Part shown: positions 15,685 to 37,666 of the stretch, one piece after another
Layout: each line of letters opens with the position of its first letter
Numbering within the stretch: the first letter of the stretch is position 1
DNA from: Pseudoalteromonas ulvae UL12
GTDB lineage: Bacteria > Pseudomonadota > Gammaproteobacteria > Enterobacterales > Alteromonadaceae
Assembly (NCBI RefSeq): GCF_014925405.1
Contig: NZ_AQHJ01000027.1
Span: 248,001-312,000, forward strand
Length of the DNA stretch: 64,000 nucleotides
Direction of reading: 5' to 3'
Made by a program: the position numbers and the translations under genes
Notes under the pieces: model-generated
Told to the model about the DNA's origin: nothing
Database searches by the model: none
What the model saw: only the letters and a program-made list of their open reading frames with translations

Positions 15685-15697
15685 TTGCAAATTGCAA
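15685..15697. promoter_or_regulatory. TTGCA-N3-TGCAA palindrome (LuxO/SypG-type operator candidate)
   Basis: TTGCA-AAT-TGCAA between the hybrid kinase and the YvcK-like gene. On the minus strand the flank continues AAGCA, as at the 29904 and 37654 copies. Confidence 0.7.
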
Positions 15698-15849
15698 AAT
15701 TTAATCACTAACAAGCAGCCTTCTTGTGCTTACTTGTTTAATTTTTTGAGTTATTAAAGATTAAATTTAGAAAAGATTACCTTATAAAACAATTTTTTAA
15801 GACATTATTCAAAGAAATTAACCAACAGATTTGAATAAACTCCTGAACT

Positions 15850-15865
15850 TGGCCTAAAGCTTGAT
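15850..15865 (+). promoter_or_regulatory. Weak sigma-54 promoter candidate before the YvcK-like gene
   Basis: TGGCCT-AAAGC-TTGAT compared with TGGCAC-N5-TTGCA. The -12 dinucleotide is GA instead of GC. It lies 58 bp upstream of the ATG at 15923, with the palindrome at 15685 further upstream. Confidence 0.35.
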
Positions 15866-15922
15866 TAATTTTTCTAAGAGTTAAAACAAGAGAGTCGAAG
15901 TTGGTCTCTTAAGGGAGTTCAC

Positions 15923-16822
15923 ATGAAGATAGTCTGTATCGGCGGCGGCCATGGCCTAGCCCAAATGCTATTAGCTTTAAAACCTTTAAACGCCGACATT
16001 ACGGCCATTGTTGCCACAACAGACAATGGTGGTAGTACAGGAGAGATTCGCAAAAACAATAACGTTATTGCGCTTGGCGATATTCGCCGCTGTATCCTCG
16101 CGCTTGCAGAGGATAACGACTTACTGGCGGTGATGGCCAAACAACGTTTCGAGCATTGTGGCCAACTGTCAGGTCACAGTTTAGGGAACCTAATGCTGCT
16201 TGCTCTGACGCAAATTTCATCTTCTCCCACCGATGCAATTACTTGGCTTTGTCATTTATTAGGTGTTGAACAAACCATTTTACCCATGAGTGACACGCCT
16301 GTGGATTTAGTGGCAACCCTTGCCAACGGCAAGCGAGTACTCGGAGAATGCAGTATCGATGCGCTTAAAACAGTACCTGAAACAGTCGCGCTCAACGACA
16401 TTGTCTTTGCTCCCTTACAAGCGACATCAGCTATTTTAAATGCAGATTATGTTTTTATTGGTCCTGGCAGCGTCTTAACCAGTGTGCTCCCTCCTTTGTT
16501 GGTACCGAACATTCAACAGGCTCTGCAAAAAACCCTTGCTTGTCGTGTATTTGTTGAAAACGTCGCAAAAGAGCAAAGTGTCGCAGATTTGCAACCTCTT
16601 TCAACCCAAGAATGGCTAAGCCAATTACTTGGTTTTCAATTTAATGATATTACCATCACCACTGACGCGATTTCGCTCATAGACCAGCGTGAGCATACCG
16701 AGCAACATAATCCTAAGAATGAGCAACTTCATGATTTAAACACCTTGAATCATGTACTCTCGCAATTTCTAAAACCCAACTATATCAACTCACATGATTT
16801 AAGTAATCAAACCCTTCATTAG
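15923..16822 (+). CDS. YvcK/CofD-like nucleotide-sugar-binding protein
   Basis: The 299-residue protein has the family pattern: IGGGHGLAQMLLAL at the N terminus, TDNGGSTGEIR, GDIRRCILALA, SGHSLGNLMLLAL and a IGPGSVLTSVLPPLL segment near residue 180. YvcK (gluconeogenesis factor) proteins bind UDP-GlcNAc and affect envelope and carbon metabolism; CofD members transfer a phospholactyl group. Length and motifs favour the YvcK side. It has AAGGGAG as ribosome site. The location beside hybrid kinase, HPt and EPS genes suggests a link to surface polysaccharide precursors, which is inference. Confidence 0.85.
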   Translation: MKIVCIGGGHGLAQMLLALKPLNADITAIVATTDNGGSTGEIRKNNNVIALGDIRRCILALAEDNDLLAVMAKQRFEHCGQLSGHSLGNLMLLALTQISSSPTDAITWLCHLLGVEQTILPMSDTPVDLVATLANGKRVLGECSIDALKTVPETVALNDIVFAPLQATSAILNADYVFIGPGSVLTSVLPPLLVPNIQQALQKTLACRVFVENVAKEQSVADLQPLSTQEWLSQLLGFQFNDITITTDAISLIDQREHTEQHNPKNEQLHDLNTLNHVLSQFLKPNYINSHDLSNQTLH

Positions 16823-16826
16823 AGGC

Positions 16827-17150
16827 TCAGGTGAACTGTATGGCTTGTGAAAACGTCTTGTTAGCAATATCAGGTAGAGTCGCCATAGCTTGGGCCAATG
16901 CATCGCGATTACCTGCTTTTGCGCTCATTTCAATTTGTTCGCAAAGGTTGCCAAGAATCAGCGCGCCATATGTTTTGGCTGAACTTTTTAAACTATGGCT
17001 AAGTAAAATAACCTGCTGGTCATCAATGGGTAATGCCAGTAACTGTTCAACAATTTTCGTACTTTCATTTATAAACACATTCATCAAACTTTTCGATAAT
17101 TCGTCACCGACATCCACTTTAAGTTGTTGCACGATTGTTTGTTCAAACAT
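16827..17150 (-). CDS. Free-standing HPt phosphotransfer protein
   Basis: The 107-residue protein is a single HPt domain with His52 in LLSHSLKSSAKTYGA, the signature His-x-Leu-Lys-x-x-x-x-x-x-Gly arrangement. Such proteins pass phosphate between the REC of a hybrid kinase and a response regulator, as LuxU does to LuxO. Two hybrid kinases in the window (8326 and 13624) lack an HPt, and a LuxO/SypG-like regulator lies at 18275-19678, so it is a plausible hub for them. It is divergent from the GT4 gene with 32 bp between starts. Confidence 0.9.
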   Translation of the reverse strand: MFEQTIVQQLKVDVGDELSKSLMNVFINESTKIVEQLLALPIDDQQVILLSHSLKSSAKTYGALILGNLCEQIEMSAKAGNRDALAQAMATLPDIANKTFSQAIQFT

Positions 17151-17182
17151 TCTGTACTCCTGTTTTTATCCGAGGTATCAAT

Positions 17183-18235
17183 ATGAAAACACGTATAATT
17201 CTATTGGTTGATTCTAGTCTATTTGGCGGAATTGAGTCACATTTAGTGCAGCTATCACAATTGCTGGTACACCATAACGTTGCGTTTGAAGTGCTCTTTT
17301 ATCAACAGCATAATAACCAACAATTTTATCAACAGCTCGAACAACATAACATCAATTTTACTGTACTTTTGGGGACGTTTAGAGCTTTATATCAGTATCT
17401 TAAGCAACAAACTCAGCCTATTGTGGTACATACTCATGGCTATAAAGCAGGAATTTTAGGCCGTCTTGCCTGTTTGATACAGCGTAAAGCCGTTGTGTCT
17501 ACTTTTCATGCTGGAGAAATAGGCTTAGGCCGAGTGAAATATTACAACTTGCTTGACCGGATCAGCAGCATCTTATCCGTCAACTTTGCCGTCTCGCAGC
17601 CCATCGCCAAAAAAGTGCATCAAGCCACCTTGATAGCTAACTTTATTAACCCTCGAACCCTACATTATCAGCCTTTAAAATCCGTTATCAATATTGGCTA
17701 TGTTGGCCGACTATCGAGTGAAAAAGGGCCCGACGTGTTTTTATCATTAGCACAGGCGTGCCAGTATTTGCCGCAGTTTTCATTCCATATTTTTGGAGAT
17801 GGGCCACTCAAAGAGCAAATTACATCCGTGCCCAGTGTTCATTACCATGGTCAATGTAACAGTGATGAAATCTGGCCAAAATTGGATGTGCTCATCGTCA
17901 GTTCCCGCGAAGAAGGCATGCCAATGGTTATTTTGGAAGCAATGAATAATGGCGTCGCCATCATCAGCCATCCTGTAGGTGCAATCCCAACGATTATCGA
18001 GAACAATCAAACGGGTCAAATTAGCAAAGGGTTTGGGGCGTCCTGTTTAAAAAATGCGTTATTACATTGGTTTTATTTAGCGGAACCAGTCAAGCAGCAA
18101 CAAATTTTGGCTGCGCATACAAAGGTCAATCGTGATTTTTGCGGCCAATCGCAATTTAAACAACTCCAACAAGGCTACCACAAAGCCCTTGAAAAAGTGG
18201 CTAATCGATTAACCAGCACACACATCACCGATTAA
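17183..18235 (+). CDS. Glycosyltransferase family 4
   Basis: The start at 17183 (MKTRIILLVDSSLFGGIESH) has GAGG 9 bp upstream and gives the family N terminus. GT4 features are the N-terminal FGGIESHLVQL, the GYVGRLSSEKGPDVFL strand-loop at the start of the C-terminal domain, and the Glu-rich site SSREEGMPMVILEAMNNG, which binds the donor nucleotide-sugar. It is retaining by family. It lies convergent to the sigma-54 regulator that ends the syp-like locus, so it may supply a sugar to that polysaccharide (the position of sypH in V. fischeri), but its strand is opposite. Confidence 0.9.
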   Translation: MKTRIILLVDSSLFGGIESHLVQLSQLLVHHNVAFEVLFYQQHNNQQFYQQLEQHNINFTVLLGTFRALYQYLKQQTQPIVVHTHGYKAGILGRLACLIQRKAVVSTFHAGEIGLGRVKYYNLLDRISSILSVNFAVSQPIAKKVHQATLIANFINPRTLHYQPLKSVINIGYVGRLSSEKGPDVFLSLAQACQYLPQFSFHIFGDGPLKEQITSVPSVHYHGQCNSDEIWPKLDVLIVSSREEGMPMVILEAMNNGVAIISHPVGAIPTIIENNQTGQISKGFGASCLKNALLHWFYLAEPVKQQQILAAHTKVNRDFCGQSQFKQLQQGYHKALEKVANRLTSTHITD

Positions 18236-18274: not shown

Positions 18275-19678
18275 TTAAACTGACATTTCTTGCCACTGTT
18301 TCATTTTACGATAAATCGTCGATGGGCTGACTTCTAACATTGCTGCAGCACGAGGAATATTGTCATTGGCGACGGCTATCGCTTGTTCTATATAACGTTT
18401 TTCGGCTAGCCAAAGCGGCTCTATTTGCGCATCGCCATCACTAAAACGGGCTCTTTTTGATGGCTCAGGGGTTGCGCTAAGGGGCGCTTGCGTTGCCGTA
18501 TTGATGATATTACCATGCTGTAATTGTGGCAACATCGTCACTTCTATCCAGCCTGACTCGTTTAAAACAACTGTATTTCTGACCACATTTTCTAGCTGTC
18601 GCACATTACCAGGCCAATCATAGTTGACTAGATAATGACGCGTGGTCGGCGCCATACCTTGATAGTCTTTTGATTCTTCTTTACTGATTTTTTTAAATAA
18701 AAATTCTGCAATTTCAATCACATCCTGTCCACGCTCACGCAACGCGGGTAAAACAATGGGTATTACATGCAAACGATAAAACAAATCTTCTCTAAAGCGC
18801 CCTTCATTCACTTCTAAAAGAGGATCGCGATTGGTAGCACATACAAAACGCACATCGACGGACTCGAGCTTTTCACTGCCCACTTTTTGAAAAGTCCCCG
18901 TTTGGATAAAGCGCAGTAGTTTACTTTGTAGTTTTAAATCCATTTCGCAGATTTCATCTAAAAACAATGTCCCCCCGTTCGCTTGACCTGCCGCTCCCTC
19001 GCGGTTATTGGTCGCACCTGTAAACGCACCTTTAACATGGCCAAATATTTCACTTTCGATTAAATCTTTAGGAATGGCCGCACAATTGAGGGCAATAAAC
19101 GGAGCTTTCGCTCTGGGGCTGCATTGATGAACGGCACTGGCGCATAGCTCTTTACCTGTACCACTTTCACCGGTAATAAAAACCGTTGCTTTACTGGCTG
19201 CGGCACTGTTGATGATCTGATAGACAGACTGCATAATTGGCGAGCTCCCAACCAACTGACAAAAGCGGCCATTGCTATATTGGTTTTGAAAGCTGCTGAC
19301 TTTTTCAGTTAACGTTTTCAGTTTTAAAGCATTATTTACTGTGACGCGAAAACGCTCTGCATCGATGGGTTTTTCGAGGAAATCAGTCGCGCCAAGGCGA
19401 ATGGCTTGCACTGCTAATTCTTTACTACCATGACCAGTTAACACCACCACTTGTGGCCGCTCATCAGTGTCTGGTAAAGAGGCTAAAATATCCATGCCAT
19501 TCATATCTGGCAACATAATATCCAAAATGATCAACTGGGGAGTATGCGTGGCTAAAAAATCCAGCGCCGCTTGTCCTGTGTTAGCAATATGGCTCGTTGT
19601 GCCAGTTGGAATTAAATAGGATTGATACATCAAGGCCAACGATTCGGTATCTTCTACAATTAACACCTTTGCTGTCAT
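18275..19678 (-). CDS. Sigma-54-dependent response regulator, LuxO/SypG-like
   Basis: The 467 residues comprise REC (phospho-Asp53 in LIILDIMLPDMNG, Lys in FLEKPID), an AAA+ domain (Walker A GESGTGKE, GAFTGA sigma-54 contact loop, Walker B GGTLFLDEI, arginine-finger region FREDLFYRL) and a C-terminal Fis-type HTH ending in AAAMLEVSPSTIYRKMKQW. Several stretches resemble V. harveyi LuxO as I recall it (IPKDLIESE, LLRFIQTGTFQKVGS). It closes the A-B-C-D-E-G gene order, so it is the SypG counterpart. It is probably activated through the HPt protein. Its likely targets are the TTGCA-N3-TGCAA sites and sigma-54 promoters across the locus. Confidence 0.93.
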   Translation of the reverse strand: MTAKVLIVEDTESLALMYQSYLIPTGTTSHIANTGQAALDFLATHTPQLIILDIMLPDMNGMDILASLPDTDERPQVVVLTGHGSKELAVQAIRLGATDFLEKPIDAERFRVTVNNALKLKTLTEKVSSFQNQYSNGRFCQLVGSSPIMQSVYQIINSAAASKATVFITGESGTGKELCASAVHQCSPRAKAPFIALNCAAIPKDLIESEIFGHVKGAFTGATNNREGAAGQANGGTLFLDEICEMDLKLQSKLLRFIQTGTFQKVGSEKLESVDVRFVCATNRDPLLEVNEGRFREDLFYRLHVIPIVLPALRERGQDVIEIAEFLFKKISKEESKDYQGMAPTTRHYLVNYDWPGNVRQLENVVRNTVVLNESGWIEVTMLPQLQHGNIINTATQAPLSATPEPSKRARFSDGDAQIEPLWLAEKRYIEQAIAVANDNIPRAAAMLEVSPSTIYRKMKQWQEMSV

Positions 19679-19723
19679 TCATCACTCCCTTTATTATTTT
19701 TATCACTTTTTGAGACCCTCCTC

Positions 19724-21202
19724 CTAATTAAGTACCACAAGTGAAGAATCGTCAATCTCTTGATGCAAATTAGGAAAACTGTTTTTCCACAGTGCGTTAG
19801 CAAAATTATGACCATAATCTGAGGGGCCAATCCGCTGAACAATCTCAAAAACCTGTTTTTCGGCCGTTTGTTCTTTAGAAGCATTTTCAAACCAACCATC
19901 AGTATAAAGTAACAAGTGATGCCCATTAGGCAGGTGCTGCTGCGTTATTTGATAACAATGATCTGAGCTTAAGCCTAACAAAGGTTGACTGTCCCCCCAG
20001 ATATGTCCTTTATGATGTTTATCCACTTCGAGAGGCAACGGGTGACCCGCAGAAATCCAACTAATGCAACGCTCATTAATCTGTAAAACAATTAAAGTCA
20101 CTAAACTGGCTTGCAGTAATTCTTCCTCATAAATGGCGTGTGAGAGCGCATTCATCATTTTTGCTATATCAGTGGAAACAGCCCCTAAAAACCCTTGAAT
20201 AAACCCTTTAAGTGCGTAACTTTCTTTTTTAGCTGCTAAACCGTGGCCCATCACATCGGCTAAAATTAAGATGCTGTGTTTTTTATCTGTTTTAAGGAGT
20301 AAAAAATCACCACCATTACCACTGACCACACTGCCAAACGGCCACATCGTTAGCTGGCTATTAATCATTTGGTGTTTACAGGCTTCATTATGGCTGGTTT
20401 GTGCCTGTTTCATTGCTTGTTGCTGCTTGCGTTTAAGCACCCGATCGCAGACTAAATGGAGTTGAGTTTTCAGTAATGGTTTTAATAAGTAGTCGTCAAT
20501 ATATGATTGATTCGCTTGGTGAATCGTTTCAGGTTGATGATCACTGCTCATCAAAATAATGGCCATTTCTGTACACGTTTTAAAAGCTCTAATTTGCTCA
20601 ATAACTTCGATAGCCGTTGTGTTTGGGAAATTAAAGTCGGTAATCAATAAATCATTTTGGCTGTGTTTTAAATAATGAAGTGCCTCATCGGGTTCGCTAA
20701 ACACACTTATTGAGTAACGTTCGCTTAAATAGGCACTTAACAAGGGTAATAAAGTGAGATCATCATCTAAAAGCACGACCTTTTTCTTATTCGTATTTTT
20801 AGAGACACTAAAGCTAAACTGATTTTTTCCATCTAGATTAACATACTGATAATCCGGGAAACTATGTCGAATTAATGCCAGTCCCATTCCTCCTTCAACG
20901 AGGTCGCCACTGTGCACTTGCCACCCTTCTTTTTCACTGCACATCAACTTAAAATATGGGGTCGGATCAATCAACATTACATTAATGTCTCCTTGTTCTT
21001 CACTGATCACTAAGGTGATCGCTTCATCTTCTCCACTGCAATGGCGCAATAAATTCGTTAAGTACTCCGTCATCACTAAACCTGCACTATCAATGTCATT
21101 TTCGTCGACTGATAATCCACCCAGTACATGTAGTAAGGCTTGCCTGATCTGACTCACAGCTGGCCAAATCAAATTAAAACGACGATGAAATAAAGTGGCC
21201 AT
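19724..21202 (-). CDS. SypE-like partner-switch regulator (RsbW-like kinase - REC - PP2C phosphatase)
   Basis: The domain order is N-terminal HATPase/RsbW-like (about 1-140, N-box MTEYLTNLLRH, GGMGLALI), a central REC (about 142-260, Asp in LLITDFNFP, Lys in LLKPL) and a SpoIIE/PP2C phosphatase (about 290-492, GNGGDF, LADVMGHG, LYTDGWFE, DDSSLVVL). This three-part order is that of V. fischeri SypE, which phosphorylates and dephosphorylates the STAS protein SypA. All catalytic motifs look intact, so both activities are possible. The STAS partner is encoded at 24974-25300 in the same operon. The REC probably sets the balance between the two activities. Confidence 0.92.
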   Translation of the reverse strand: MATLFHRRFNLIWPAVSQIRQALLHVLGGLSVDENDIDSAGLVMTEYLTNLLRHCSGEDEAITLVISEEQGDINVMLIDPTPYFKLMCSEKEGWQVHSGDLVEGGMGLALIRHSFPDYQYVNLDGKNQFSFSVSKNTNKKKVVLLDDDLTLLPLLSAYLSERYSISVFSEPDEALHYLKHSQNDLLITDFNFPNTTAIEVIEQIRAFKTCTEMAIILMSSDHQPETIHQANQSYIDDYLLKPLLKTQLHLVCDRVLKRKQQQAMKQAQTSHNEACKHQMINSQLTMWPFGSVVSGNGGDFLLLKTDKKHSILILADVMGHGLAAKKESYALKGFIQGFLGAVSTDIAKMMNALSHAIYEEELLQASLVTLIVLQINERCISWISAGHPLPLEVDKHHKGHIWGDSQPLLGLSSDHCYQITQQHLPNGHHLLLYTDGWFENASKEQTAEKQVFEIVQRIGPSDYGHNFANALWKNSFPNLHQEIDDSSLVVLN

Positions 21203-21228
21203 TTGAATCTCCTTAAATCAACCTGAGC

Positions 21229-21936
21229 TTATGGGCAGCGAAATAAAAATGCTTTATTACGGACTTGTTTTAATAACCATTGGGCTAACTTTGGAAAGCG
21301 AAGACACTTTTCTTGTATGGTTTGAATTAACAAAGGCCCGAGGGGCGGTAAATATTGCTGCTGTAAAATATAGTAGCTTTTATTCAAACCAGCTTTTTGC
21401 AGCATATGCTGAGTATTACAAATATCTTCTTCTGTATTTTTGCCAAGTGCGACGCACACTAAGGTTAAATCAGTGCAAGTTGCAATGACATGTAAAGGCA
21501 CATTTGCCCGATTTACACGCAGCGCTGGTGACATATCAATCAAGATATAGTCGTATTCTTGGCGCAGTCTAAATATCGCCTCTTGTAATATCACCGGATC
21601 CCGTATTTCAGCCAATTGATCGAGACTTTGCACACTGAGTAAATCGAGATTATCGACTGTCATCACATTAGTCTGACAGCTTATATCTTCGAAACACCAC
21701 GACTGTTTAGGCGCTTCAACACCAAAGTAATCGAGTTTAAAAGGCTGACAGTGATTCAAATCGATGACCAATACATTCTTTTGTGCATCAATCAAACGTT
21801 CAGCCAGTGACAGTGTTAATGAGGTGGTGCCTTCTTGGCCGTTGGCTGAAATGAGTGTAATACAGTGGGCATTTTCACTGCGCACTTGCTTATACAGCTC
21901 TTCTATTTCTTGATAATGCTTCGGTATAATTTTCAT
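21229..21936 (-). CDS. SypD-like Wzc/BY-kinase-type ATPase with degraded Walker A
   Basis: The fold is that of a BY-kinase or CpsD ATPase: VLVIDLNH (Walker A' position) and YDYILIDMSPAL (Walker B). The P-loop reads SANGQEGTTSL where active kinases have S-x-x-P-G-E-G-K-S/T-T, so the catalytic Lys is replaced by Thr. There is also no C-terminal tyrosine cluster. It may be a pseudokinase that only couples chain-length control (Wzz-like protein at 28376) to export. It overlaps the export gene by four bases (ATGA), so it is translationally coupled. At 235 residues it has the normal cytoplasmic-domain length. Confidence 0.85.
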   Translation of the reverse strand: MKIIPKHYQEIEELYKQVRSENAHCITLISANGQEGTTSLTLSLAERLIDAQKNVLVIDLNHCQPFKLDYFGVEAPKQSWCFEDISCQTNVMTVDNLDLLSVQSLDQLAEIRDPVILQEAIFRLRQEYDYILIDMSPALRVNRANVPLHVIATCTDLTLVCVALGKNTEEDICNTQHMLQKAGLNKSYYILQQQYLPPLGPLLIQTIQEKCLRFPKLAQWLLKQVRNKAFLFRCP

Positions 21937-24095
21937 AAGCCCACCAACAATGCAACGATGGTTAATACATCTAAGAATGAATTTTTTGCCACTTTGGTTA
22001 AATCTTCTTTATCGCTTGGGATATACACAGTGTCGCCTGCACGTAACACCGGGATATTGGCTGAATTTGGTTTTTTAACAAATTTTTCCAAGTCAAAGCG
22101 ACGTGATTGTTCTTTACAACATGAGTGGTTAATCACAATAATTTTATCAATCATGGCTTGACTCGAAGGCCCCCCCGCTTCTGCTAAAATATCCAGTAAT
22201 GTCATCGAATCATCAAAACTATAACGGCCAGGTTTTTCAATTGCTCCCATGATGCGAACGACTTGCTCTTTGGGTTTACTTAGCCAATCTTTGCTTTTTT
22301 CAGGAATAAAAATCGTGTCACCCGGTAAAACTTTAGGAAACAGTGTTTCATCGCCGGTTTCAAAGTACAGTGCTAAATCTAATTTGCTGACACGGGCTTT
22401 ATTATCATTACGATGGGTAATACGAATATTTCGAATATCGGCTTTTTCAGTAGGACCATCTGCAGCAGACAAAATATCAATGAAATTAAGTTGCTCAGTA
22501 AATGCATACCGACCTGGCGCGCCTACTTGTCCTAAGATATAAATCGAATTTTTCGCATCTTGTCTAATCCATTGTGACTTGTTGTCTTTTGGGTCATGCG
22601 GTAACTCTTCCACAATCACCGTGTCGCCAGACAAAATCTCCGGCAATGTATAGCTACCATCACTCGAATTGGCATAAGACTCTAAGCTAAAACTGGCTGT
22701 GACTTTGCCTTTGCGCATAATTTTAATGTCATTCACATTGGCTCCTTTTGTTGGTCCTCCGGCATGAGCAAATAAATCAGTAAAGTCCATTTCTTTGCTC
22801 CACTCATAGCGCCCTGGACTATGCACCGCACCAATAATTTTCACTGCGCGAGTGGGAGGCACTTTTAACCAGCTTTTTTCATTGATATCAGTTTTTTCTG
22901 GCACAAACACCACATCACCAGGGCGCACGGTTGGCACAGAATCATTGAGTAGTCCTTCACTGTATGCCAATAAATCAAATAAAATATTTTCACCCGCGCT
23001 GGTTAAAATTTTAATTTGACGGGTTTCGGCAAACCGAGTCGGCCCGCCCGCATTGGCTAAAATATCTAAAAAACTGACGTTTTCTGGTGCTTCATAAGCA
23101 CCGGGTTTTTGTACTTCCCCCATAATGTAGACAGTACGGGCATTGGCTTTGACATCCTCAACCATAATAGGCACATAAATCGTTGATCCCGCGACCATTT
23201 CAGGTAAAACACTGTCATCACCTGAATCGAGGTACTGTTTGAGATCAAACATGATAGGTTCACCTTTTAAGATCACACGAATGTTATTTACATCAGCAAA
23301 ACGTGTGACCCCACCTGCGCGCATTAAGGCCTCAACAATACTCATGCCCTCTTTGTATGAAAAGGTGCCTGGATTATGCAGCTCACCAAATAAGGTAATC
23401 GACTCTTTACTGGTCCCATCTCCGGCTGCACTTAAGGTCTGTGCGTCAAAGTCAATTTGTACATTGCCAATCAATGGCGAGACTGGCACAAACACAGTGT
23501 CACCACTTTTAAGCTCAGGTAAAATACGGCTATCACCGCTATCGAGATAGGATTTATAGTTAAAAATAATCCGCTCTTCGCCGCGACGAATTTGTAAACG
23601 GTCAAGCTGTGCGCCTGCTTTGAGACCACCCGCTTTACTGATCACCATTTGCACATTGCCTGACTCAGGAATACTGATTTGACTCGGTGTATTCACATAC
23701 CCTAAGGCGTTGATTAATAAATCACGTGAACGGACTTCAATATAAAAACGTGATAACGCTTTATAGACACCTGCAAGGCGTAATTTCAGTTCTGCTTGTG
23801 CGCGAGACGGTAATTTCCCAGCTAACTTCACTTTGCCAATTTCTGGTAGATTAATGTCGCCTTTATCATCCACCTCAAATAACGTTTCGAATTGCGGTTC
23901 ACCTGGCACGTAAATAAAGAGTTTATTACCCACCTCAATGACGCGTTCTTGCTCTGTTTGCATGACGCTTTTATCGGCTTCTAAAGAAGGTTGCGTGGAC
24001 ACGGCGTTCTCAGCAGAAGCAGTCTGTGCCATCACTGAATTCATCAGCAAGCTAAGCGTGACCAAACAAAGTGTCTTTATGAATGGTTTCATCAT
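21933..24095 (-). CDS. SypC-like polysaccharide export protein with about six SLBB repeats
   Basis: After a signal peptide (to about residue 24, ending in VMAQTASA) comes a polysaccharide-export (Wza-type) domain, then about six SLBB repeats in sequence, each with a G-x-V/I-x-x-PG-x-Y opening and a DILA-x-AGGPT end, spaced about 85-100 residues (for example PGTFSYKEGMSIVEAL, PGAYEAPENVSFLDIL, PGRYEWSKEMDFTDLF, PGRYAFTEQLNFIDIL, PGRYSFDDSMTLLDIL). It is 720 residues, roughly twice E. coli Wza. The end is a hydrophobic LDVLTIVALLVGL. It forms the periplasmic/outer-membrane exit in the family. It overlaps the ATPase gene by 4 bp and abuts the OmpA gene with no gap. Confidence 0.92.
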   Translation of the reverse strand: MMKPFIKTLCLVTLSLLMNSVMAQTASAENAVSTQPSLEADKSVMQTEQERVIEVGNKLFIYVPGEPQFETLFEVDDKGDINLPEIGKVKLAGKLPSRAQAELKLRLAGVYKALSRFYIEVRSRDLLINALGYVNTPSQISIPESGNVQMVISKAGGLKAGAQLDRLQIRRGEERIIFNYKSYLDSGDSRILPELKSGDTVFVPVSPLIGNVQIDFDAQTLSAAGDGTSKESITLFGELHNPGTFSYKEGMSIVEALMRAGGVTRFADVNNIRVILKGEPIMFDLKQYLDSGDDSVLPEMVAGSTIYVPIMVEDVKANARTVYIMGEVQKPGAYEAPENVSFLDILANAGGPTRFAETRQIKILTSAGENILFDLLAYSEGLLNDSVPTVRPGDVVFVPEKTDINEKSWLKVPPTRAVKIIGAVHSPGRYEWSKEMDFTDLFAHAGGPTKGANVNDIKIMRKGKVTASFSLESYANSSDGSYTLPEILSGDTVIVEELPHDPKDNKSQWIRQDAKNSIYILGQVGAPGRYAFTEQLNFIDILSAADGPTEKADIRNIRITHRNDNKARVSKLDLALYFETGDETLFPKVLPGDTIFIPEKSKDWLSKPKEQVVRIMGAIEKPGRYSFDDSMTLLDILAEAGGPSSQAMIDKIIVINHSCCKEQSRRFDLEKFVKKPNSANIPVLRAGDTVYIPSDKEDLTKVAKNSFLDVLTIVALLVGL

Positions 24096-24959
24096 TTACT
24101 CCTTATCTAACTGAAGGTGATCGGTCCACTGGCTCAACGAAACTTTCTTTTCATCAGTGAGGCCCTGTTGGTTGACAAACTTTTTGCCATCGGTGAGCAA
24201 ATACGCGTTCACTCTGCGATCTGAATGCTGACTTGCTGCCGTTTGTTCTGTCTGTTGATAAGGCGATAATGCGCCTTGTGTCAGCGTGGTTAACTGCGCT
24301 TCTTGCACGCCGTACATCATCAACCAATATTTCACTTGCTCAGCGCGTTTAAACGCTAATTCATAGTTCACAACTAGTTGACCACGGGCATCAGCATGGC
24401 CTACCAACAAAATGTTCAGTTCAGGTGCCATTTTGATAAGCTCTGCAGCTTGCGCCAGACCCGTCATGTATTTTGGTGTGACCTGAAAGTTATTAAATGC
24501 AAATTGGTTATCGCTATTGAGCAACTGTTCAATGCGTGTAAATAAACTAGATTGCTCTGATGCCTGCTTGGTACTGGCGCATTGTGTTTGGGCCACGATA
24601 TACTTGAAGTGGCGATCTAATTGGTTGAGCTGGTGATACCAAACACTTAAATCTGCTTGTGCATCTATGACCATATTGGCGGTGAGCTCACGTTTAATTC
24701 TGTTTCTCATCAAATTTGCTTGATAGAGCTGAGCTGGCATGCAATCACCTAAACCTTGAGTGATTAACATTTCTAACTTCAGTGATAAATGTTCAAACTC
24801 ATTTTCAACTTGGTGTAACGTTTGATAGTGCCAAGCTTCATCAACGGTGACGCCTTGCGGTGTATAATGTTCAGCCCAGCCGCCCTGTCCTTCGTCTGGC
24901 CAGCTAGTACACCCAGCAGCCACTAATGAAATTAGTGAGACAGCAATAAAATGTTTCAT
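24096..24959 (-). CDS. SypB-like OmpA-domain lipoprotein
   Basis: A lipoprotein signal with lipobox LVAAGC puts the mature Cys at about residue 17. The C-terminal half is an OmpA/peptidoglycan-binding domain: NILLVGHADARGQLVVNY and AFKRAEQVKYWLM, with the Asp-Arg pair typical of diaminopimelate binding. The N-terminal half is helical, probably coiled coil. It likely anchors the export machinery to the cell wall. It directly follows the STAS gene and precedes the export gene with no gap, in the order A-B-C of the syp locus. Confidence 0.9.
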   Translation of the reverse strand: MKHFIAVSLISLVAAGCTSWPDEGQGGWAEHYTPQGVTVDEAWHYQTLHQVENEFEHLSLKLEMLITQGLGDCMPAQLYQANLMRNRIKRELTANMVIDAQADLSVWYHQLNQLDRHFKYIVAQTQCASTKQASEQSSLFTRIEQLLNSDNQFAFNNFQVTPKYMTGLAQAAELIKMAPELNILLVGHADARGQLVVNYELAFKRAEQVKYWLMMYGVQEAQLTTLTQGALSPYQQTEQTAASQHSDRRVNAYLLTDGKKFVNQQGLTDEKKVSLSQWTDHLQLDKE

Positions 24960-24973
24960 AGCCAGCCTCCTTA

Positions 24974-25300: not shown

Positions 25301-25339
25301 GGGACTCACCTTAAAAAAGTAACCGAGTTACTGGGTTAG

Positions 25340-25355
25340 TCCAAGATCGATGCCA
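25340..25355 (-). promoter_or_regulatory. Sigma-54 promoter candidate of the sypA-like operon
   Basis: Minus strand TGGCAT-CGATC-TTGGA against TGGCAC-N5-TTGCA; the -12 dinucleotide is GG instead of GC. It lies about 40 bp before the ATG at 25300. Confidence 0.6.
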
Positions 25356-29903: not shown

Positions 29904-29916
29904 TTGCAATTTGCAA
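29904..29916. promoter_or_regulatory. TTGCA-N3-TGCAA palindrome in the wzz-like leader
   Basis: TTGCA-ATT-TGCAA, with flank AAGCAAAC. It lies between the sigma-54 candidate and the start codon, so it is downstream of the promoter, unlike the other copies. Confidence 0.7.
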
Positions 29917-29994: not shown

Positions 29995-30010
29995 CGCAAT
30001 TTTGCGGCCA
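29995..30010 (-). promoter_or_regulatory. Sigma-54 promoter candidate of the wzz-like operon
   Basis: Minus strand TGGCCG-CAAAA-TTGCG; both GG (-24) and GC (-12) are present with the exact 10-bp spacing. It lies 108 bp before the start codon. Confidence 0.68.
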
Positions 30011-30161: not shown

Positions 30162-30629
30162 TTAGCGGATCTCAAAAATCGCGCTATCCGAACCATTTTG
30201 ATTTTGCCATTGATATTGTAAAGGCTCTGATGAGGCTGACACAGTCCAGATATCTGCCAATAGCGTTTGATTGGCCTGATTAAGGGTCACTGTTTTTCGT
30301 AATGTCCCATCAAGTAACGCAACACGAAGTACACAGTTATTGTAATCAATCCGCTCACTGGTGGGTTCGCTATAACAGACATTTAAAAAGCTGCGCTGTG
30401 TTAACTCTGGTAACGAAACATCAACCACCAACTCGGTTTGGGTCGAAAAATCAAACTCCTGGCTGGCGACTAAATCTTGTGTTTTGATTGGTTCAGGGGA
30501 AGTTGTACCGGTGCCAGCACTCGGCGGCTGCGCCGTTGCAACAGGCTGGCTGCTTTCACTTCCACCGCCTCCACAGCCAACCATTAAGAAGACACACATA
30601 ATATTGGTAACTTTAATGAATGAATTCAT
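30162..30629 (-). CDS. Small secreted lipoprotein of unknown function
   Basis: The 155-residue protein has a signal ending in the lipobox LMVGC followed by a Gly tract (CGGGGSES), which often marks outer-membrane-bound lipoproteins. The mature part begins with a Pro/Thr/Ser-rich linker, then a predicted beta-rich region with three separated Cys. I do not recognise the family. It starts 12 bp after the LruC-domain gene and probably shares its transcript. A role as a matrix or envelope partner of the LruC protein is inference from position. Confidence 0.75.
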   Translation of the reverse strand: MNSFIKVTNIMCVFLMVGCGGGGSESSQPVATAQPPSAGTGTTSPEPIKTQDLVASQEFDFSTQTELVVDVSLPELTQRSFLNVCYSEPTSERIDYNNCVLRVALLDGTLRKTVTLNQANQTLLADIWTVSASSEPLQYQWQNQNGSDSAIFEIR

Positions 30630-30640
30630 GGTTTTTCTCC

Positions 30641-32707
30641 TTAATTATTAATCGTTTGATTAGCGGCTGGACGACTAAACCACTGTGGTTTATCCACCCC
30701 TGATGACTGGGTAAATTCGGCAAATTCTGGGTAAGCCAATAACAAATCAATTTTCTCTTTAGGGTGCGCCCAATTAGCCCCCATTTCCATTGCCCAAGGA
30801 AGACCTGACTCTGATTGATAATAAAATCCAGCACTTGCTTGGCTTCGATCATCCGCTTGACCGAATAAACCGCTATCGAATGCTTCTGTAGGGGACTGAT
30901 TCTTTAGGTGGACTTCCCAGCCACGAGCATTATTCGGGTTAACAAATGGGCCATGGTTTTGACCATTAACAGCAAAAATAAATGGGTCTAACAATCCACT
31001 CGGTGCACTGTTTTCACTGATACCACTGCTTAAAGGCACGGACACTCGAAAGTCAACTAAAGCATCATTTTCACATCCAGATTGCGTCCTAAAAAAACGA
31101 CAGCTACCAGTGCTGGCTGCCCAGTTTTTGGTATCAGGCATCACCACAATAATGGCTTCGTTACGATTAGCTTCAAGCGATGAGAAAGTTTGTGTTTGTT
31201 GATTGATTTGATGATGAATAACTGCTTGGTTAATTTGCGAAGCCGCCACCCCCGCTAAGCGCACAGCAAAACCATTGTGATAACTGGCACCCAAAGCGAC
31301 CAACTGGCCCTCGATAATGTAACGTACCACCTGTCCTTCTTTAGTATCGGTAATCGTACGGTACTTCACCACCACATCATTGAAATCATAATCGCCCACT
31401 TCAGGCCATAAATCTTCATAGGCCAACGTAACCCAACCACTTTGGCTGGGGTAGTATTGGCGACTAATGCCTGAATCAAGCACCGTGATGGAGTAATCTT
31501 CGACTTCACCATTGCCAACACCACCGATGGCGCCAACGACGGCCCCTTCTGTCACTCTAAAACGTGCCCATGTATTGGCTGCTACTGCATTGTCAGGCAC
31601 TGAAATTAAAAAGGTATTATTGCCTGCTTGAAGTTGCTCAGCACTGAGTACTTGCTCATCAGTATCAAACTGACCATTATTGTTCCAATCAAACCAGCCA
31701 TTCAGATAGCCTGATTGAGACGCGCTAACGACAATCAATGCATCAAAACCCGTTTCTAATGTAGTTACAAACTGCACACCATCATCCGAATCATCGGAGG
31801 CCTTTGGTTGCGCCTCACCATTGACTATCGAACCAAGAAAAAGACCATCGCTATTGTGTTCATGTCGTGCTCCGTTACTCGCTAATGTAGTGCCATAACT
31901 ATCAGGGGCATCACCAAAGTCGATACTGGTATCGTCTTCATCAATGATGGGTGCGGTCGCACACCGTGCACCATCGTTGTTTCCTGAAATCGGACCAAAC
32001 GCAAAAAATTGCGCCACGGGTTGCGACGCTGCCACATCAATGCGAAAGACATGACCATCTTGGTTTCTACTGATGTAAAAATTACCTTCAACGTCAAAAT
32101 AGACGGCCCCAAACGTACCGCTTTCACCCACATCAGCTACAGCCGTTGCTTGGCCAGTCGCGACATCTATTTGAAACAATATTCCTCGGCTGTCTACACT
32201 GAACGCATCGCCAGTGCTTGGGTGAAAGGCCAAATCAAAAATATTTAAATTTAATTGTCCACCATCAATCACTCGCTGAGCTTGCAGGTAATCAGGGCTT
32301 GATTGGTCCAGCTCAAGTCGATACAACCCTAAACTTGAGCCTTTTTTGTAGGCATAATAAGCATTCTCAAGTACCGAGACATCACCGACAAAAAAATCAG
32401 TGTTTGGAAAACCCGATGTCGTGATTGGCTGCTCTTGATAATCTTTCCCGATGCGAATAAAACTGCGGTTTTGATATCCCCAGCCGTAAAGATAACGATC
32501 ATGCACACTAAAGCCAATCGCGTTGATTTTGTTATTGGTACCCATTTCATTGGCTAACGTTAACGCACTCCCCGTCGCGAGGTTCACTCCAAACAGCACC
32601 GCTTTGTTTTGTTGCACTAAAAATGCTTTAGAAGGACAGGTGTCAAATGGTTCAGCAAAGCCCGCTACACTCGCTAAACACGCGCACCCGAGTAAAAGTT
32701 GTTTCAT
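30641..32707 (-). CDS. Secreted LruC-domain protein with propeller and GEVED modules
   Basis: After a signal peptide (to about residue 18) lies a propeller-like region (about 20-270, strands such as NAIGFSVHDRYLYGWGY). It is followed by an acidic linker DFGDAPDSYGTT, a GEVED-type module ending in GNGEVEDYSITV, and from about residue 415 an LruC domain opening LAYEDLWPEVGDYDFNDVVV. Acidic clusters (DWNNNGQFDTDE) suggest Ca binding. At 688 residues it is a large secreted protein. It sits inside the polysaccharide locus, where V. fischeri has sypN, with its own sigma-54 candidate and palindrome. A biofilm-matrix or adhesion role is inferred, not shown. Confidence 0.9.
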   Translation of the reverse strand: MKQLLLGCACLASVAGFAEPFDTCPSKAFLVQQNKAVLFGVNLATGSALTLANEMGTNNKINAIGFSVHDRYLYGWGYQNRSFIRIGKDYQEQPITTSGFPNTDFFVGDVSVLENAYYAYKKGSSLGLYRLELDQSSPDYLQAQRVIDGGQLNLNIFDLAFHPSTGDAFSVDSRGILFQIDVATGQATAVADVGESGTFGAVYFDVEGNFYISRNQDGHVFRIDVAASQPVAQFFAFGPISGNNDGARCATAPIIDEDDTSIDFGDAPDSYGTTLASNGARHEHNSDGLFLGSIVNGEAQPKASDDSDDGVQFVTTLETGFDALIVVSASQSGYLNGWFDWNNNGQFDTDEQVLSAEQLQAGNNTFLISVPDNAVAANTWARFRVTEGAVVGAIGGVGNGEVEDYSITVLDSGISRQYYPSQSGWVTLAYEDLWPEVGDYDFNDVVVKYRTITDTKEGQVVRYIIEGQLVALGASYHNGFAVRLAGVAASQINQAVIHHQINQQTQTFSSLEANRNEAIIVVMPDTKNWAASTGSCRFFRTQSGCENDALVDFRVSVPLSSGISENSAPSGLLDPFIFAVNGQNHGPFVNPNNARGWEVHLKNQSPTEAFDSGLFGQADDRSQASAGFYYQSESGLPWAMEMGANWAHPKEKIDLLLAYPEFAEFTQSSGVDKPQWFSRPAANQTINN

Positions 32708-32741: not shown

Positions 32742-32757
32742 TGCATGATTAAGACCA
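32742..32757 (-). promoter_or_regulatory. Sigma-54 promoter candidate of the LruC gene
   Basis: Minus strand TGGTCT-TAATC-ATGCA; GG and GC at exact spacing. It lies about 35 bp before the start codon, with the palindrome at 32831 centred 87 bp upstream. Confidence 0.62.
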
Positions 32758-32817: not shown

Positions 32818-32856
32818 TAAAAACCCCTAATTGCAAACTGCAACAAGGGGTTTTAG
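32818..32856 (-). terminator. Terminator with an operator-like palindrome as its loop
   Basis: AAAACCCCT and AGGGGTTTT form a 9-bp stem; the enclosed bases are AA-TTGCA-AAC-TGCAA-CA, so the inner palindrome extends the hairpin. It ends the acetyltransferase operon 20 bp after its stop. Confidence 0.88.
32831..32843. promoter_or_regulatory. TTGCA-N3-TGCAA palindrome inside the terminator loop
   Basis: TTGCA-AAC-TGCAA. It lies about 87 bp upstream of the sigma-54 candidate for the LruC gene. Confidence 0.7.
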
Positions 32857-32874: not shown

Positions 32875-33573
32875 TTAAAGCGTTTTGACCACTTTCGCTG
32901 GATTACCAGCTGCGATAGAAAACGCAGGAACATCTTTAGTGACAACTGCACCTGCACCAATAATTGCCCCTTGGCCAATTGTTACGCCAGCAAGCACAGT
33001 GACGCCAGTACCTAACCATGCCCCCTGTTTAATAATAATGTCGCCAACTTGTTCATCCTTATCAGGGGCACCTTGTGCGCGTGCATCATTATCGAGTGGG
33101 TGACCAGGATACCCAGCTAAAAACACTCGCCCAGCGAGACGCACATCATCTTCTAACACAATGCGCGTGCCTACGGCTAACGTATTTTGCCAACCAATAT
33201 CCACATTATCACCGACGATTAGCTGAGGTTTGTCAGCGGATGCGCTGCGACCGCTTAAAGTGGAAATCCCGGAAATTCGAACACGATTGCCTAACGAAAT
33301 CGACAATGGCCCTAAAATCAGTGGTAAACCTGAATACAGATACAATTGCTGTTTCGTGCCTGCCACTTGGCTTTTCAACAACGGCGTAAAATAGACAACC
33401 CGTGTGCCCTCTTGCCAGAGTTTGACGACTAATTTATGCAATAAATATAACAGCGAATGCACACCAGGGATCACCGGTATTTGGGGGTTTAAAATAAGAT
33501 GTGCAAAGCGGCGAAGGAATCGAGCTTGTGGGCTGTCATTTGTTTTAACCCATTGTTTAATAGTTAATAGCAT
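32875..33573 (-). CDS. SypM-like hexapeptide-repeat acetyltransferase
   Basis: The 232 residues contain left-handed beta-helix hexapeptide repeats in the second half ([37 protein letters not shown]) and end in the family-typical [11 protein letters not shown]. It is a serine-acetyltransferase/WcaF-type O-acetyltransferase by fold, likely to acetylate a sugar of the repeat unit. The stop-start gap to the O-antigen-ligase-like gene is 2 bp, so they are co-transcribed. It has the sypM position. Confidence 0.9.
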
Positions 33574-33575
33574 AT

Positions 33576-34976
33576 TTAACCCCTTAATGATCCATATTCA
33601 GCTTGCGTCATTTTTTCAAGCGCAATGGTTAACGATAAAATAATATAAATAGGCCAGTTAAATGCCTGTGTTAAAAATGTGCCTGCCACACAAAAACCTA
33701 GTAACCCTGCCCGCAGTGCATTGGTGTTTAGCATCAAACTCGCACAAGATAATTGATTACAAATCATGAAACTTCGCCGCAATGAGCGCACGATGACTGC
33801 CAGCATTAAAAAATAGACTGCTAAGCCGACAAAGCCAGTCTCACCGAGTACTTGAAACCAGGTACTATGCACGGCATGATTTTTCCCATCCCAATGAGGG
33901 CTATAAAAATAGTAGTTCGAAACAAAGTTATTCACCCCCACTCCTGTTAATGGGTTCGATGTCGCCATATTAATTGCGGCTTGCCATGCATAAATCCGCC
34001 CCATCGCAGATGCGTCGACCCCTTCTTCAGCTGCACCGCCACTTTGGCGATCACTGATACCGGCTGCTGCAATCAACACTAACATTGCCAACCCACCGAT
34101 GGCCGCCACGACCACAGGGTTTTTAACTTTTTGATAAATGAAATAAGCCATCACAGCACAAATTCCAAGTAATCCTCCACGACTTTGCGTTGCAATCACC
34201 CCAGAAATCACTATGGCCAATCCTAATAGCGCTAAAAAACGGATCCATTTGCTGTTGTGAGCGCAAAACAGTTCTGCAGCTAAAAAAGAAACCGGAAACA
34301 TCAGTACCAGCGATAAATCATTCGGAGCGCCAATTTGTGATCGAAGATGACGAGATATCGTCACCCGAGTGCCCTCAACTAATCCGATGCCATTAGCCTT
34401 GTTATACAAGGCAACACACGCGACTAACACGCCTGACAACATAATACCAAAGCGTACCCAATTAAACGCTTTTTTGGTATTCAACCACCAGCTAATCACA
34501 AACACCATTAAAAAGACTTTAGTGAAAATATCGATCCAAAATTGCATCGCCAAAGGGCGATCTTTAGCTGCAAAAACTGAAACCGTCACCCATACAAACA
34601 CTAAGCAAAATGCCATATGTCCCGTGTGCCAAAATGGCGTGAGCTTACGTGAAATAAACAAGTGCCATGCAATCCCAGCCAATGAAGCCAGTGCTAACAA
34701 CTTTGGAATTTTAAATGGCATTAACACCGGGAACGCTTCGTGTAGCCGAAAATAACTAAACAAGATAAATAAGATGATAAACACAGTACTGATTTGCACT
34801 GCCATCACTGCTGCAAACGGCAATAACACAATTGCAAAAGCAGCGATAAAACCCAGCTCTTGGTAGAGCACAATTATTAGCACACAAAAAATACCCGTGA
34901 GCCACATCGCTAAGTTTACTTTAGGTTGCGCCATAGCAACTGTTGCTGTTGGAAACTGTGCTGAATCTGGTTTCAT
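33576..34976 (-). CDS. SypL-like O-antigen ligase/polymerase (Wzy) family protein
   Basis: The 466-residue integral membrane protein has about 10-12 hydrophobic helices and a large periplasmic loop with the signature region [15 protein letters not shown] followed by [12 protein letters not shown], the Wzy/WaaL pattern. [10 protein letters not shown] marks the preceding helix boundary (read as [11 protein letters not shown]). In a Wzx/Wzy locus without a lipid A ligase role it is most likely the polymerase. It overlaps the flippase gene by 4 bp. Confidence 0.9.
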
Positions 34977-36394
34977 GCCAATTTGCCCCTAACTTGACCT
35001 GCGATACGCTGATAACATTGTTTTATGAAAGGTTGATGCCCGACACTTAGCACAATGAGATTCAAAACAATTGCAACAAGGTTGATAAACACAGCCATTA
35101 AAGGCAAAGCAGACTGACTCTCAAACACAAGCGTTTGACCTAACACCACCAAAAATATCAGCCAACTCAAGGCTAACTGTCGAAATGGATACGCTAATGG
35201 GAGTAAATACTGACTAATCGTAAAAAACAGGATTGCCCGAATGAATGCGGCGCTCACCATCACAGCAAATAAGCCATTCAATTCCCAATGAGCAAGAGCA
35301 ATATAACCAGCGACCAGCAAATATACTGCAGTCGTAGCATTGACAAACAACGCCAGGCTGGCACTTTTCTTTAGGTAACACCCTAAGTTCAGTAACTCCG
35401 CATGAAAACGCGCCACCATAATCAAACAAAACCACGGAATATAACTCAAACTAGGCGCAAAGTGTGCGGGTAACAATATAGCCAATAAAGTAGGTGCGAT
35501 GATTAACATTAACACTGTCAGAAACATCCCCAATTGCACACCAAAAAGTGCATATTGCGCGCCTTGTTCTGAATCTTTCTCTTGAAATTGAAACCGTTTC
35601 GCGTACCACCACATCCGAAACGGTTCAAATGCCACTGACACCATTAATCCAAATTGTGCAGCAGCAAAAAATAAGGCCAATTGTTCAGCTCCTAAAGCCG
35701 CGACCACCAACCAATTTTCAGCACCATTAAAGCCATACAAACACAAGCTTGAGAGTAAAATAAACAAACAATATTGATAATGGGTGCGATTAAACGCCAC
35801 TCTAGGCCCAAACCAAGTTGCTCGGTAATGAACCAAAACAGCCACCAGGATAATCACCGCACTGATCGCCCCTGAATACATTAAACCGCGGATCCCAAAA
35901 CCCAGTAGTAGAAAACACACCGATAAACACGTCTGTAGTGCACCTTGTGCAATAGAAAAAACCGCAAAGGCTGTGGCATTTTGAGTTAAGCGAAAATAGC
36001 AATACGGCACAGTTAACATACCGCCAGCGGTGAGGGTTATCAGCAAAAGCCGCACATCGGTTGGTGCGGGTGCAAACGACACTTGTTCAAGTATGGGTGT
36101 TAACAATAGTTGGCCAATCAAGAGCATCGCGCAGCAAATCAGCGTGGATAAAAATAAACATTGGCGCATCACCTCATCGGGTGCACGACAGGTGTGAGCA
36201 AAACGAAAGAGTGCCTCGCCAAGCCCAAAGGTCATGAACAAACTCAATACAGCAGCCATCGATACAAGAACGTTAAGCTGGCCATATTCTGCTTGCGTTA
36301 AAAAACGGGTCACCATGGGCAGCATGATAAAACTCAGCCCTTTGAGCATAAAAATAGCAACCACATAAAGCAGCATTTCTTTGGCTGATTTCAT
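34973..36394 (-). CDS. SypK-like Wzx flippase (MOP superfamily)
   Basis: The protein of about 473 residues has 12-14 hydrophobic helices and the N-terminal MOP pattern MLLYVVAIFMLKGLSFIMLP and FLTQAEYGQLNV. It moves undecaprenyl-linked repeat units across the inner membrane. The start at 36394 is preferred over 36415 because its ATG overlaps the stop of the preceding GT4 gene (ATGA at 36391-36394) and begins with a family-like N terminus. The next gene overlaps its end by 4 bp. Confidence 0.9.
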   Translation of the reverse strand: MKSAKEMLLYVVAIFMLKGLSFIMLPMVTRFLTQAEYGQLNVLVSMAAVLSLFMTFGLGEALFRFAHTCRAPDEVMRQCLFLSTLICCAMLLIGQLLLTPILEQVSFAPAPTDVRLLLITLTAGGMLTVPYCYFRLTQNATAFAVFSIAQGALQTCLSVCFLLLGFGIRGLMYSGAISAVIILVAVLVHYRATWFGPRVAFNRTHYQYCLFILLSSLCLYGFNGAENWLVVAALGAEQLALFFAAAQFGLMVSVAFEPFRMWWYAKRFQFQEKDSEQGAQYALFGVQLGMFLTVLMLIIAPTLLAILLPAHFAPSLSYIPWFCLIMVARFHAELLNLGCYLKKSASLALFVNATTAVYLLVAGYIALAHWELNGLFAVMVSAAFIRAILFFTISQYLLPLAYPFRQLALSWLIFLVVLGQTLVFESQSALPLMAVFINLVAIVLNLIVLSVGHQPFIKQCYQRIAGQVRGKLA

Positions 36395-37551
36395 ACACGT
36401 GCCTGCTCTATCCATTGTGATAATTTAGCCCCTTGCAACTGTGCATTAAAGCACTGTTCGACTTGTTGGCGGGCGTGTTGACGCATACTCAAATACGATG
36501 TGGCTGGCAATTGGCAAAATGCCGTAATCGCTTTGACTAGCTGAGTGACATTTTTTTGCTCAACTAAAAATCCTGTATCGGCTGTCGCTATTTCTGGACA
36601 CCCCATAATATTAGTGGTGATGACAGGTAACCCCATCGCCATGGCTTCTTTGAGCACCACAGGGCCCGTATCACAATCGCCGTTATCTGCAATACAAAAA
36701 GGTGCCAAAAAGCCATGGTAATGCAAGCCAATTCGACTGATCCACTCCGGTGTTTGATAACCTAAAAAGCGTACATAATCATTGAGCCTGAGTTGCTCAA
36801 CTTGTTTCATGAGTGCTTTTTTAAGCGGCCCTTCTCCCACAATATCGAGCACAGGGCGTATTTCATGCGGTAGGTTGGCGAGCGCACTCAGTGCATAGGT
36901 CAGCCCTTTTTTCTCAACCAAGCGACCAACAAACAGAAGCTTTTTTTCATCCGATACAGGTTTGTGTGCAAATTCAAATCGTTCAATGTTAACCCCACAA
37001 TGCAATAGATTGGTTTTTTGCCCACCCAAACCAGCAAAGTGTGCTTCCATATCACCACACACAGCAACATTAAAGCTGCAACGACGCAACTTAGTTTCTA
37101 GATTTTGTTGATTAATGTACACATCATGACCATGACCAATACTCGACACTGGAATATTCGCCCAACAAGCTGCAATCATTGAATAGGCTAAGCCACTGTG
37201 CATAAAATGACAGTGAATGTGCTGACATTGATGCTTTTTAAGTAAACACGCTAACTTTGCGCCGTGATAAAGTAATGATTGCGCAGAAATTGCATCTAAC
37301 TCTAAGGCAAGTTGCCAGGTTTTTGCTAAACGCATTGAGCGCTGAGTGCAATAAACCGCCACTTCTTTTGTCGAAACTTCGGCGACACTGACCACTTTTA
37401 AACCTTTGGGAAGCACCACTTCATTTTGTAAATATGTAAAACAAAACAAAGTAACGGGGTGACCTTGTTTTAAAAGCGCATCAATTTCAGTTAGCACAAA
37501 GGTTTCTGAAGGAACTGGAAACTCATTAATGAAAAAGGCGATATGTTTCAT
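36391..37551 (-). CDS. Glycosyltransferase family 4 (SypJ-like position)
   Basis: The 386-residue protein opens with IAFFINEFPVPSETFVLTEI, typical of the WcaL/AmsK group of GT4 enzymes that act on exopolysaccharide repeat units. The C-terminal domain has LLFVGRLVEKKGLTYAL and the donor site TGPVVLKEAMAMGLPVITTN. It is first in the J-K-L-M operon. A sigma-54 candidate (37588-37603) lies 37 bp before the ATG and a palindrome about 100 bp before it. Confidence 0.92.
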   Translation of the reverse strand: MKHIAFFINEFPVPSETFVLTEIDALLKQGHPVTLFCFTYLQNEVVLPKGLKVVSVAEVSTKEVAVYCTQRSMRLAKTWQLALELDAISAQSLLYHGAKLACLLKKHQCQHIHCHFMHSGLAYSMIAACWANIPVSSIGHGHDVYINQQNLETKLRRCSFNVAVCGDMEAHFAGLGGQKTNLLHCGVNIERFEFAHKPVSDEKKLLFVGRLVEKKGLTYALSALANLPHEIRPVLDIVGEGPLKKALMKQVEQLRLNDYVRFLGYQTPEWISRIGLHYHGFLAPFCIADNGDCDTGPVVLKEAMAMGLPVITTNIMGCPEIATADTGFLVEQKNVTQLVKAITAFCQLPATSYLSMRQHARQQVEQCFNAQLQGAKLSQWIEQARV

Positions 37552-37587
37552 AGCTTGAACTCACATTGAAGTTTGATACTGTGGTAT

Positions 37588-37603
37588 CGCAAACTTCATG
37601 CCG
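37588..37603 (-). promoter_or_regulatory. Sigma-54 promoter candidate of the J-K-L-M operon
   Basis: Minus strand CGGCAT-GAAGT-TTGCG against TGGCAC-N5-TTGCA; GG and GC at exact spacing. It is among the best matches in the window. Confidence 0.72.
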
Positions 37604-37653
37604 CCTAAAAACTCGCGTTTTTGGCTTGATTTAGCGCCTTTTGCAAACATTTA

Positions 37654-37666
37654 TTGCATTTTGCAA
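37654..37666. promoter_or_regulatory. TTGCA-N3-TGCAA palindrome before the J-K-L-M operon
   Basis: TTGCA-TTT-TGCAA with flank AAGCAAAC, centred about 64 bp upstream of the -24/-12 candidate. It lies in a 342-bp gap (37552-37893) that also holds a run of eight C (37781-37788); I see no gene in this gap. Confidence 0.8.

Follow-up and report, generated by a model that had tools for sequence, protein, structure and literature searches.

The palindromes of the form TTGCA-N3-TGCAA that surround a syp-like exopolysaccharide (EPS) locus in Pseudoalteromonas ulvae UL12 very probably act as enhancers of a SypG-type biofilm regulon, with the protein encoded at 18275-19678 as their activator. This reading draws on sequence comparison of the window (the whole stretch of 64,000 nucleotides analysed here, to which all positions refer) with related genomes.

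Conserved operators at a syp-like locus

Six perfect copies of the palindrome had been reported in a first-pass annotation of the window, and all six were recovered as exact matches at those positions (Table 1). Their number exceeded chance expectation as claimed, since 100 dinucleotide shuffles of the window gave a mean of 0.45 copies and none reached six. Across the whole genome (4.74 Mb, 34 contigs), 18 perfect sites were found versus 4 for the reversed pattern, and the 22 kb containing the locus held 6 of the 18 (binomial P 1.8e-10). Among the 12 sites elsewhere, 10 were located within open reading frames (ORFs) with a length of 393 bp or more, and the other 2 (L004 and L006) outside such ORFs. 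An all-A/T core was present in five of the six locus sites versus one of the 12 others; no distal regulon member was found in the genome among the sites with such a core, as the sole distal one fell within a TonB-receptor-like ORF. The extended flank TGCAAAGCA was indeed common to three copies (15685, 29904 and 37654).

The annotation had placed all six sites in non-coding DNA, which is arguable for the copy at 15685 only, as this would lie within the hybrid-kinase ORF (13624-15714) if translation began at a TTG codon. Nevertheless, in-frame ATG codons at about 15660 and 15654 provide alternative starts, and in the alignment the relative G637 carries an in-frame stop between the homologous site and the ATG, so that this operator is likely non-coding as well.

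Relatives of the activator were collected at an E value of 1e-100 or better, which gave 77 of 395 family genomes. The 15 best relatives (14 of the same genus and one of another) were footprinted together with the own genome over 32-40 kb each. The locus was syntenic in 14 of these 15 relatives and eroded in G599. Operators with at most one mismatch were located upstream of the GT36391, GNVR (wzz-like) and STAS (sypA-like) genes in 15/15 genomes holding each gene, the own genome included, and in the gap between cofD and the kinase in 10/16. The motif was not equally dense away from EPS genes: 43 of the 185 perfect sites in the 15 relatives fell in the 32-40 kb around sypG versus 1.6 expected. 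Taken singly, 11 of the 15 relatives were enriched (P below 0.005) and four were not (P 0.06-0.08). Furthermore, composites of operator and promoter (operator-N44-74-box) gave 34 matches in 15 of the 16 carriers versus one for the reversed control, with 29 at the locus or the LruC gene and five elsewhere (two each in G305 and G473, one in G343). Nine non-carriers of the same genus yielded one match, as did the reversed control. Among 11 more distant genomes, nine had a perfect operator upstream of the STAS gene, the exceptions being G318 and G259. These footprints of operators, boxes and their conservation strongly support the earlier proposal of a sigma-54 regulon with the syp-like locus at its centre. 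Some same-genus genomes also carry SypG/LuxO-type genes of a second class, which share about 47-50% identity with the activator (G581:C35:10306-11673, and likewise in G439, G652 and G656).

Table 1 Operators, candidate sigma-54 promoters and predicted target genes in the window
Feature	Position	Strand	Description
Operator, proposed to serve cofD	15685..15697	+	Between hybrid kinase and cofD
Weak sigma-54-like promoter, cofD	15850..15865	+	TGGCCTAAAGCTTGAT; GA replacing GC
Proposed target genes	15923..18235	+	CofD/YvcK-like gene, GT (Pfam)
SypG-type sigma-54 activator, putative operator binder	18275..19678	-	REC, AAA+ with GAFTGA, Fis-type HTH (Pfam)
sypA-like target operon	18275..25309	-	STAS (SypA-like), OmpA, SLBB export, AAA_31, SypE-like, SypG-like (Pfam)
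Sigma-54 promoter, sypA-like operon	25340..25355	-	TGGCATCGATCTTGGA; -12 box non-consensus
Operator, sypA-like operon	25408..25420	-	Nearer of tandem pair 32 bp apart
Operator, sypA-like operon	25440..25452	-	Farther of tandem pair
wzz-like target operon	25474..29887	-	GNVR (wzz-like), GT, sugar transferase (Pfam)
Operator, wzz-like leader	29904..29916	-	Downstream of promoter, centre estimated at about +75
Sigma-54 promoter, wzz-like operon	29995..30010	-	TGGCCGCAAAATTGCG; in 14/15 genomes
LruC target operon	30162..32707	-	LruC-domain protein, lipoprotein-like 155-aa protein
Sigma-54 promoter, LruC operon	32742..32757	-	TGGTCTTAATCATGCA; in 12/12 LruC genes
Operator, LruC operon	32831..32843	-	In 12/12 LruC genes
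GT-wzx-wzy-hexapeptide target operon	32875..37551	-	GT, Wzx, Wzy, hexapeptide transferase (Pfam)
Sigma-54 promoter, GT-wzx-wzy-hexapeptide operon	37588..37603	-	CGGCATGAAGTTTGCG; same place in 14/15 genomes
Operator between GT36391 and divergent GT37834	37654..37666	.	In 15/15 genomes

Candidate promoters and operator spacing

The four sigma-54-like matches described earlier (25340, 29995, 32742 and 37588) were all present on the minus strand. At 25340, 32742 and 37588 the operator is upstream as reported, separated from the -24 box by 52 bp (for the nearer operator of the pair), 73 bp and 50 bp, respectively. The operator near 29995 sits downstream of its promoter, as was implied by the annotation's three of four. 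A general sigma-54 consensus and weights were used, not fitted to the data. When the best score of each upstream region was compared with its shuffles, P 0.05 was reached in 14/15 rows for GNVR, 11/16 for cofD, 7/15 for GT36391, 5/7 for LruC and 2/15 for STAS; among seven control genes an intact GG/GC was the best match in 17 of 88 rows, at scattered positions of which a few recurred. The case therefore rests more on conserved place than on single scores.

Upstream of the sypA-like operon, at least one operator with at most one mismatch was found in 15/15 genomes and two in 11/15. The -24 box of this STAS promoter was likewise present in 15/15, and a -12 GC at that place in 0/15; beside the strong -24 box, the GC-less -12 position reads TTGTA, TTGGA, TTGGT, TTGAA or TTGAT. 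The wzz-like leader operator lies 23-37 bp before the start codon in 15/15 genomes, and some leader partner sites read TTTCA-N3-TGCAA. The promoter of the divergent GT37834 gene is intact in 14/15 genomes, the exception being this one. The 37654-type operator is flanked by two divergent promoters in those 14 and not here, where the GT37834 promoter at 37684-37699 (+) looks degraded (TTGGCATTTTAAAGCA, spacing one base short). For cofD, the GG/GC elements are intact in 11/16 genomes and not in the own genome, in which the operator is 152 bp from the promoter; the site at 15685 may serve this gene (15923, + strand).

The distances from operator end to -24 box were near 30, 41, 51, 60, 72, 83, 92 and 102 bp, with further values of 44, 71 and 152 (own cofD), and those of the wzz-like leader sites were -65, -95.5, -107 and -117. 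Merging gaps within 2 bp for each promoter left 21 promoter-specific states, not fully independent given shared descent and tandem sites, which clustered around a single phase when folded on a 10.5-bp period (R 0.78, a value that none of 20,000 jittered sets reached). The phase was 8.9 of 10.5 for upstream and leader operators alike. Distances to the start codon were not phased (31 states, R 0.21, 4,822 of 20,000 jittered sets). Within the genus, the operator-promoter distance appears to have shifted in whole helical turns only, as would be expected if operators keep to the promoter's side of the helix. Phasing did not hold for the 7 distinct gaps of additional genera (R 0.61, P 0.07), several of which deviated by about 3 bp, so that the whole-turn rule is restricted to the sampled genus plus G305. 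The wzz-like leader geometry was also seen in G361, which belongs to another genus.

Under the proposed mechanism, the response regulator at 18275-19678 would be phosphorylated, assemble on the operators and loop to RNA polymerase-sigma54 waiting at the -24/-12 promoters, thereby activating the sypA-like, wzz-like, GT-wzx-wzy and LruC operons and perhaps cofD; dependence of these operons on RpoN is predicted accordingly from their upstream regions. In relatives, the 37654 operator would also face the second, divergent promoter. The wzz-like promoter would satisfy the same helical rule through its leader, and any enhancement of it would have to come from downstream. Sigma-54 promoters with operators in the transcribed leader are familiar from the downstream enhancers of the FlrC/FleQ type and the Caulobacter FlbD type. 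Those belong to another regulator family with another operator, whereas upstream and downstream sites are mixed here in one regulon.

LruC as a candidate regulon member

LruC genes (E 1e-40 or better) were detected in 12 of the 16 carriers versus none of the nine same-genus genomes lacking a SypG relative at 1e-100 (Fisher P 0.0005, relatedness ignored). All 12 were preceded by an operator and a sigma-54 box that lay 50-52 bp and/or 72-73 bp apart, and G581 had an extra one-mismatch operator at gap 44. The gene lies on a contig other than that of sypG in G420 and G343, and 104-115 kb from sypG in G590, G559 and G621. Retention of the control region by a gene found at such different places strongly indicates that this region is functional. 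LruC is accordingly counted as a member of the regulon, its control region having apparently moved with the gene.

The LruC product contains DUF6923, GEVED and LruC domains and begins with a signal-peptide-like segment, and a gene for a lipoprotein-like partner comes next; the protein is probably secreted, and we infer a role in the matrix. Its AlphaFold2 model, built from 7 sequences, was weak (mean pLDDT 54.6). Foldseek matches suggested a beta-propeller N-terminus, which was set aside given the low TM-scores, and the sequence profile matched the solved structure 3oqq well at the C-terminus only. Judged by titles, the literature matches listed for 'LruC domain' concerned Leptospira only. The LruC operator also sits at the tip of a terminator-like hairpin (32820-32854, minus strand) that closes the wzy operon. 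It folded with -26.4 kcal/mol (z -4.86) and was not among the calls of a terminator scan. One palindrome may thus act both as an enhancer and within a terminator.

Relation to SypG and LuxO, and other explanations

The first-pass annotation had described the resident regulator as LuxO/SypG-like with an intact GAFTGA loop. The loop is present; synteny marks the protein as SypG-like, and a LuxO-Qrr circuit was not detected. Its best NCBIfam match was the LuxO model at 646 bits, under the model cutoff of 800. Its nearest paralogue in the genome is only 37% identical, which leaves one LuxO/SypG-type activator beside a single RpoN gene, although further sigma-54 activators are present. One locus contains the genes for this activator, a STAS protein (SypA) and an RsbW-REC-PP2C protein (SypE), the last adjoining the activator gene, and sigma-54 boxes precede the EPS operons, that of the sypA-like operon with a non-consensus -12 box. 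No Qrr gene was detected in the own genome or the 15 relatives by a search that recovered one in the positive control G259. Taken together, the single activator of LuxO/SypG type, the single RpoN and the lack of any detected Qrr indicate a SypG-type biofilm regulon rather than a LuxO quorum circuit.

The operator had been described as the LuxO form, and it does match, with an all-A/T core in five of the six copies, the LuxO site TTGCAWWWTGCAA given in the available part of PMC10162802, where SypG's own form is TTCTCANNNTGMDWN and the SypG-responsive parts of the Vibrio fischeri qrr1 promoter contain perfect LuxO-site copies, which V. fischeri SypG is reported to use there. In G259 (L157, contig C75), a pair of perfect operators spaced by 34 bp lies between a LuxO-type gene and a divergently oriented Qrr gene; this genome also contains a second SypG-type gene beside SypE. 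The recognition helix of the G259 LuxO-type protein reads SPSTLYRK versus SPSTIYRK in the activator. This near-identity beside the same operators ties the activator to them by analogy, and makes it their putative binder. In a poorly resolved tree of LuxO versus SypG ancestry, with long branches and no named Vibrio SypG included, the Qrr-linked LuxO of G259 joined the activator's clade (support 80/76).

A LuxO quorum-sensing circuit would account for the operator form and the best NCBIfam match, and the present system has a related activator and sigma-54 in common with the Vibrionaceae LuxO-Qrr system. However, the sites here face polysaccharide operons with no Qrr detected under them, and the sole LuxO/SypG-type gene lies beside a SypE-like gene and scores under the LuxO cutoff. 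The LuxO quorum regulon was rejected on the single gene and the undetected Qrr, and we regard membership of such a circuit as very improbable. An unlinked regulator could bind the palindromes instead, given the other sigma-54 activators of the genome and that binding by the 18275-19678 protein is a prediction. This has similarly slight probability, as composites follow the presence of sypG (15/16 carriers versus 1/9 non-carriers) and the same operator accompanies the near-identical helix in the G259 LuxO-Qrr unit. Chance palindromes in AT-rich intergenic DNA might be suspected from the random look of the 10 of 12 sites in ORFs elsewhere, but this idea is refuted by orthologous conservation, as well as by the shuffles and the clustering, and keeps next to no probability.

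The wzz-like leader operator might alternatively be a repression or feedback site that blocks initiation or elongation while the other sites activate. It does lie between promoter and start codon in 15/15 genomes holding the gene, with a sigma-54 box upstream in 14. Nevertheless, it shares the helical phase of the upstream sites, a match that is accounted for by looping activation and not needed for blocking; repression at this site is thus unlikely, though to be taken seriously. The preferred reading remains activation of a SypG-type regulon. Its more specific form, in which the whole-turn rule includes downstream leader activation, a single enhancer drives two divergent promoters in most relatives, a perfect LuxO operator serves a SypG regulon in bacteria with no LuxO-Qrr unit detected and a relocating LruC gene keeps its enhancers, is held tentatively, with slightly less than even confidence.

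The system resembles the SypG regulon (syp, Vibrio fischeri) and ScvE (scv, V. parahaemolyticus) in having a SypG-type activator with D53 within an EPS locus, STAS and SypE-like partners and sigma-54 control. According to the accessible portion of PMC8941931, scv loci are under ScvE control and occur in 28 genera. It differs from syp in operators that are perfect copies of the LuxO form rather than the published SypG form (PMC10162802, as available), in taking in LruC and probably cofD, and in its leader operators. Furthermore, the hybrid kinase, which lies with the cofD-like gene and a GT gene on the far side of the locus, has no Pfam HPt match, whereas SypF has an HPt in the available text of PMC10162802. 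The kind of regulon is known, and this one is set apart by the operator form, the putative leader enhancers, the whole-turn spacing and the added members. Among the literature matches listed, subscription papers lying outside them, no description of this operator set or of whole-turn spacing in a SypG regulon was found.

These results place the SypG/LuxO operator code in a family whose 16 searched carrier genomes yielded no Qrr, and bear on whether the operator passed from a biofilm-type system to LuxO or in the opposite direction. They also offer a natural series of spacing variants for looping geometry at sigma-54 promoters, downstream positions included, and nominate two proteins for the polysaccharide biofilm programme, one CofD/YvcK-like and the other an LruC-domain protein that is uncharacterised and probably secreted. 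Adjoining the locus at 38886-41328 (+) are REC, H-NOX and histidine-kinase genes, a set reminiscent of HahK/HnoX, the NO-responsive input to SypG mentioned in the abstract of PMC12369376.
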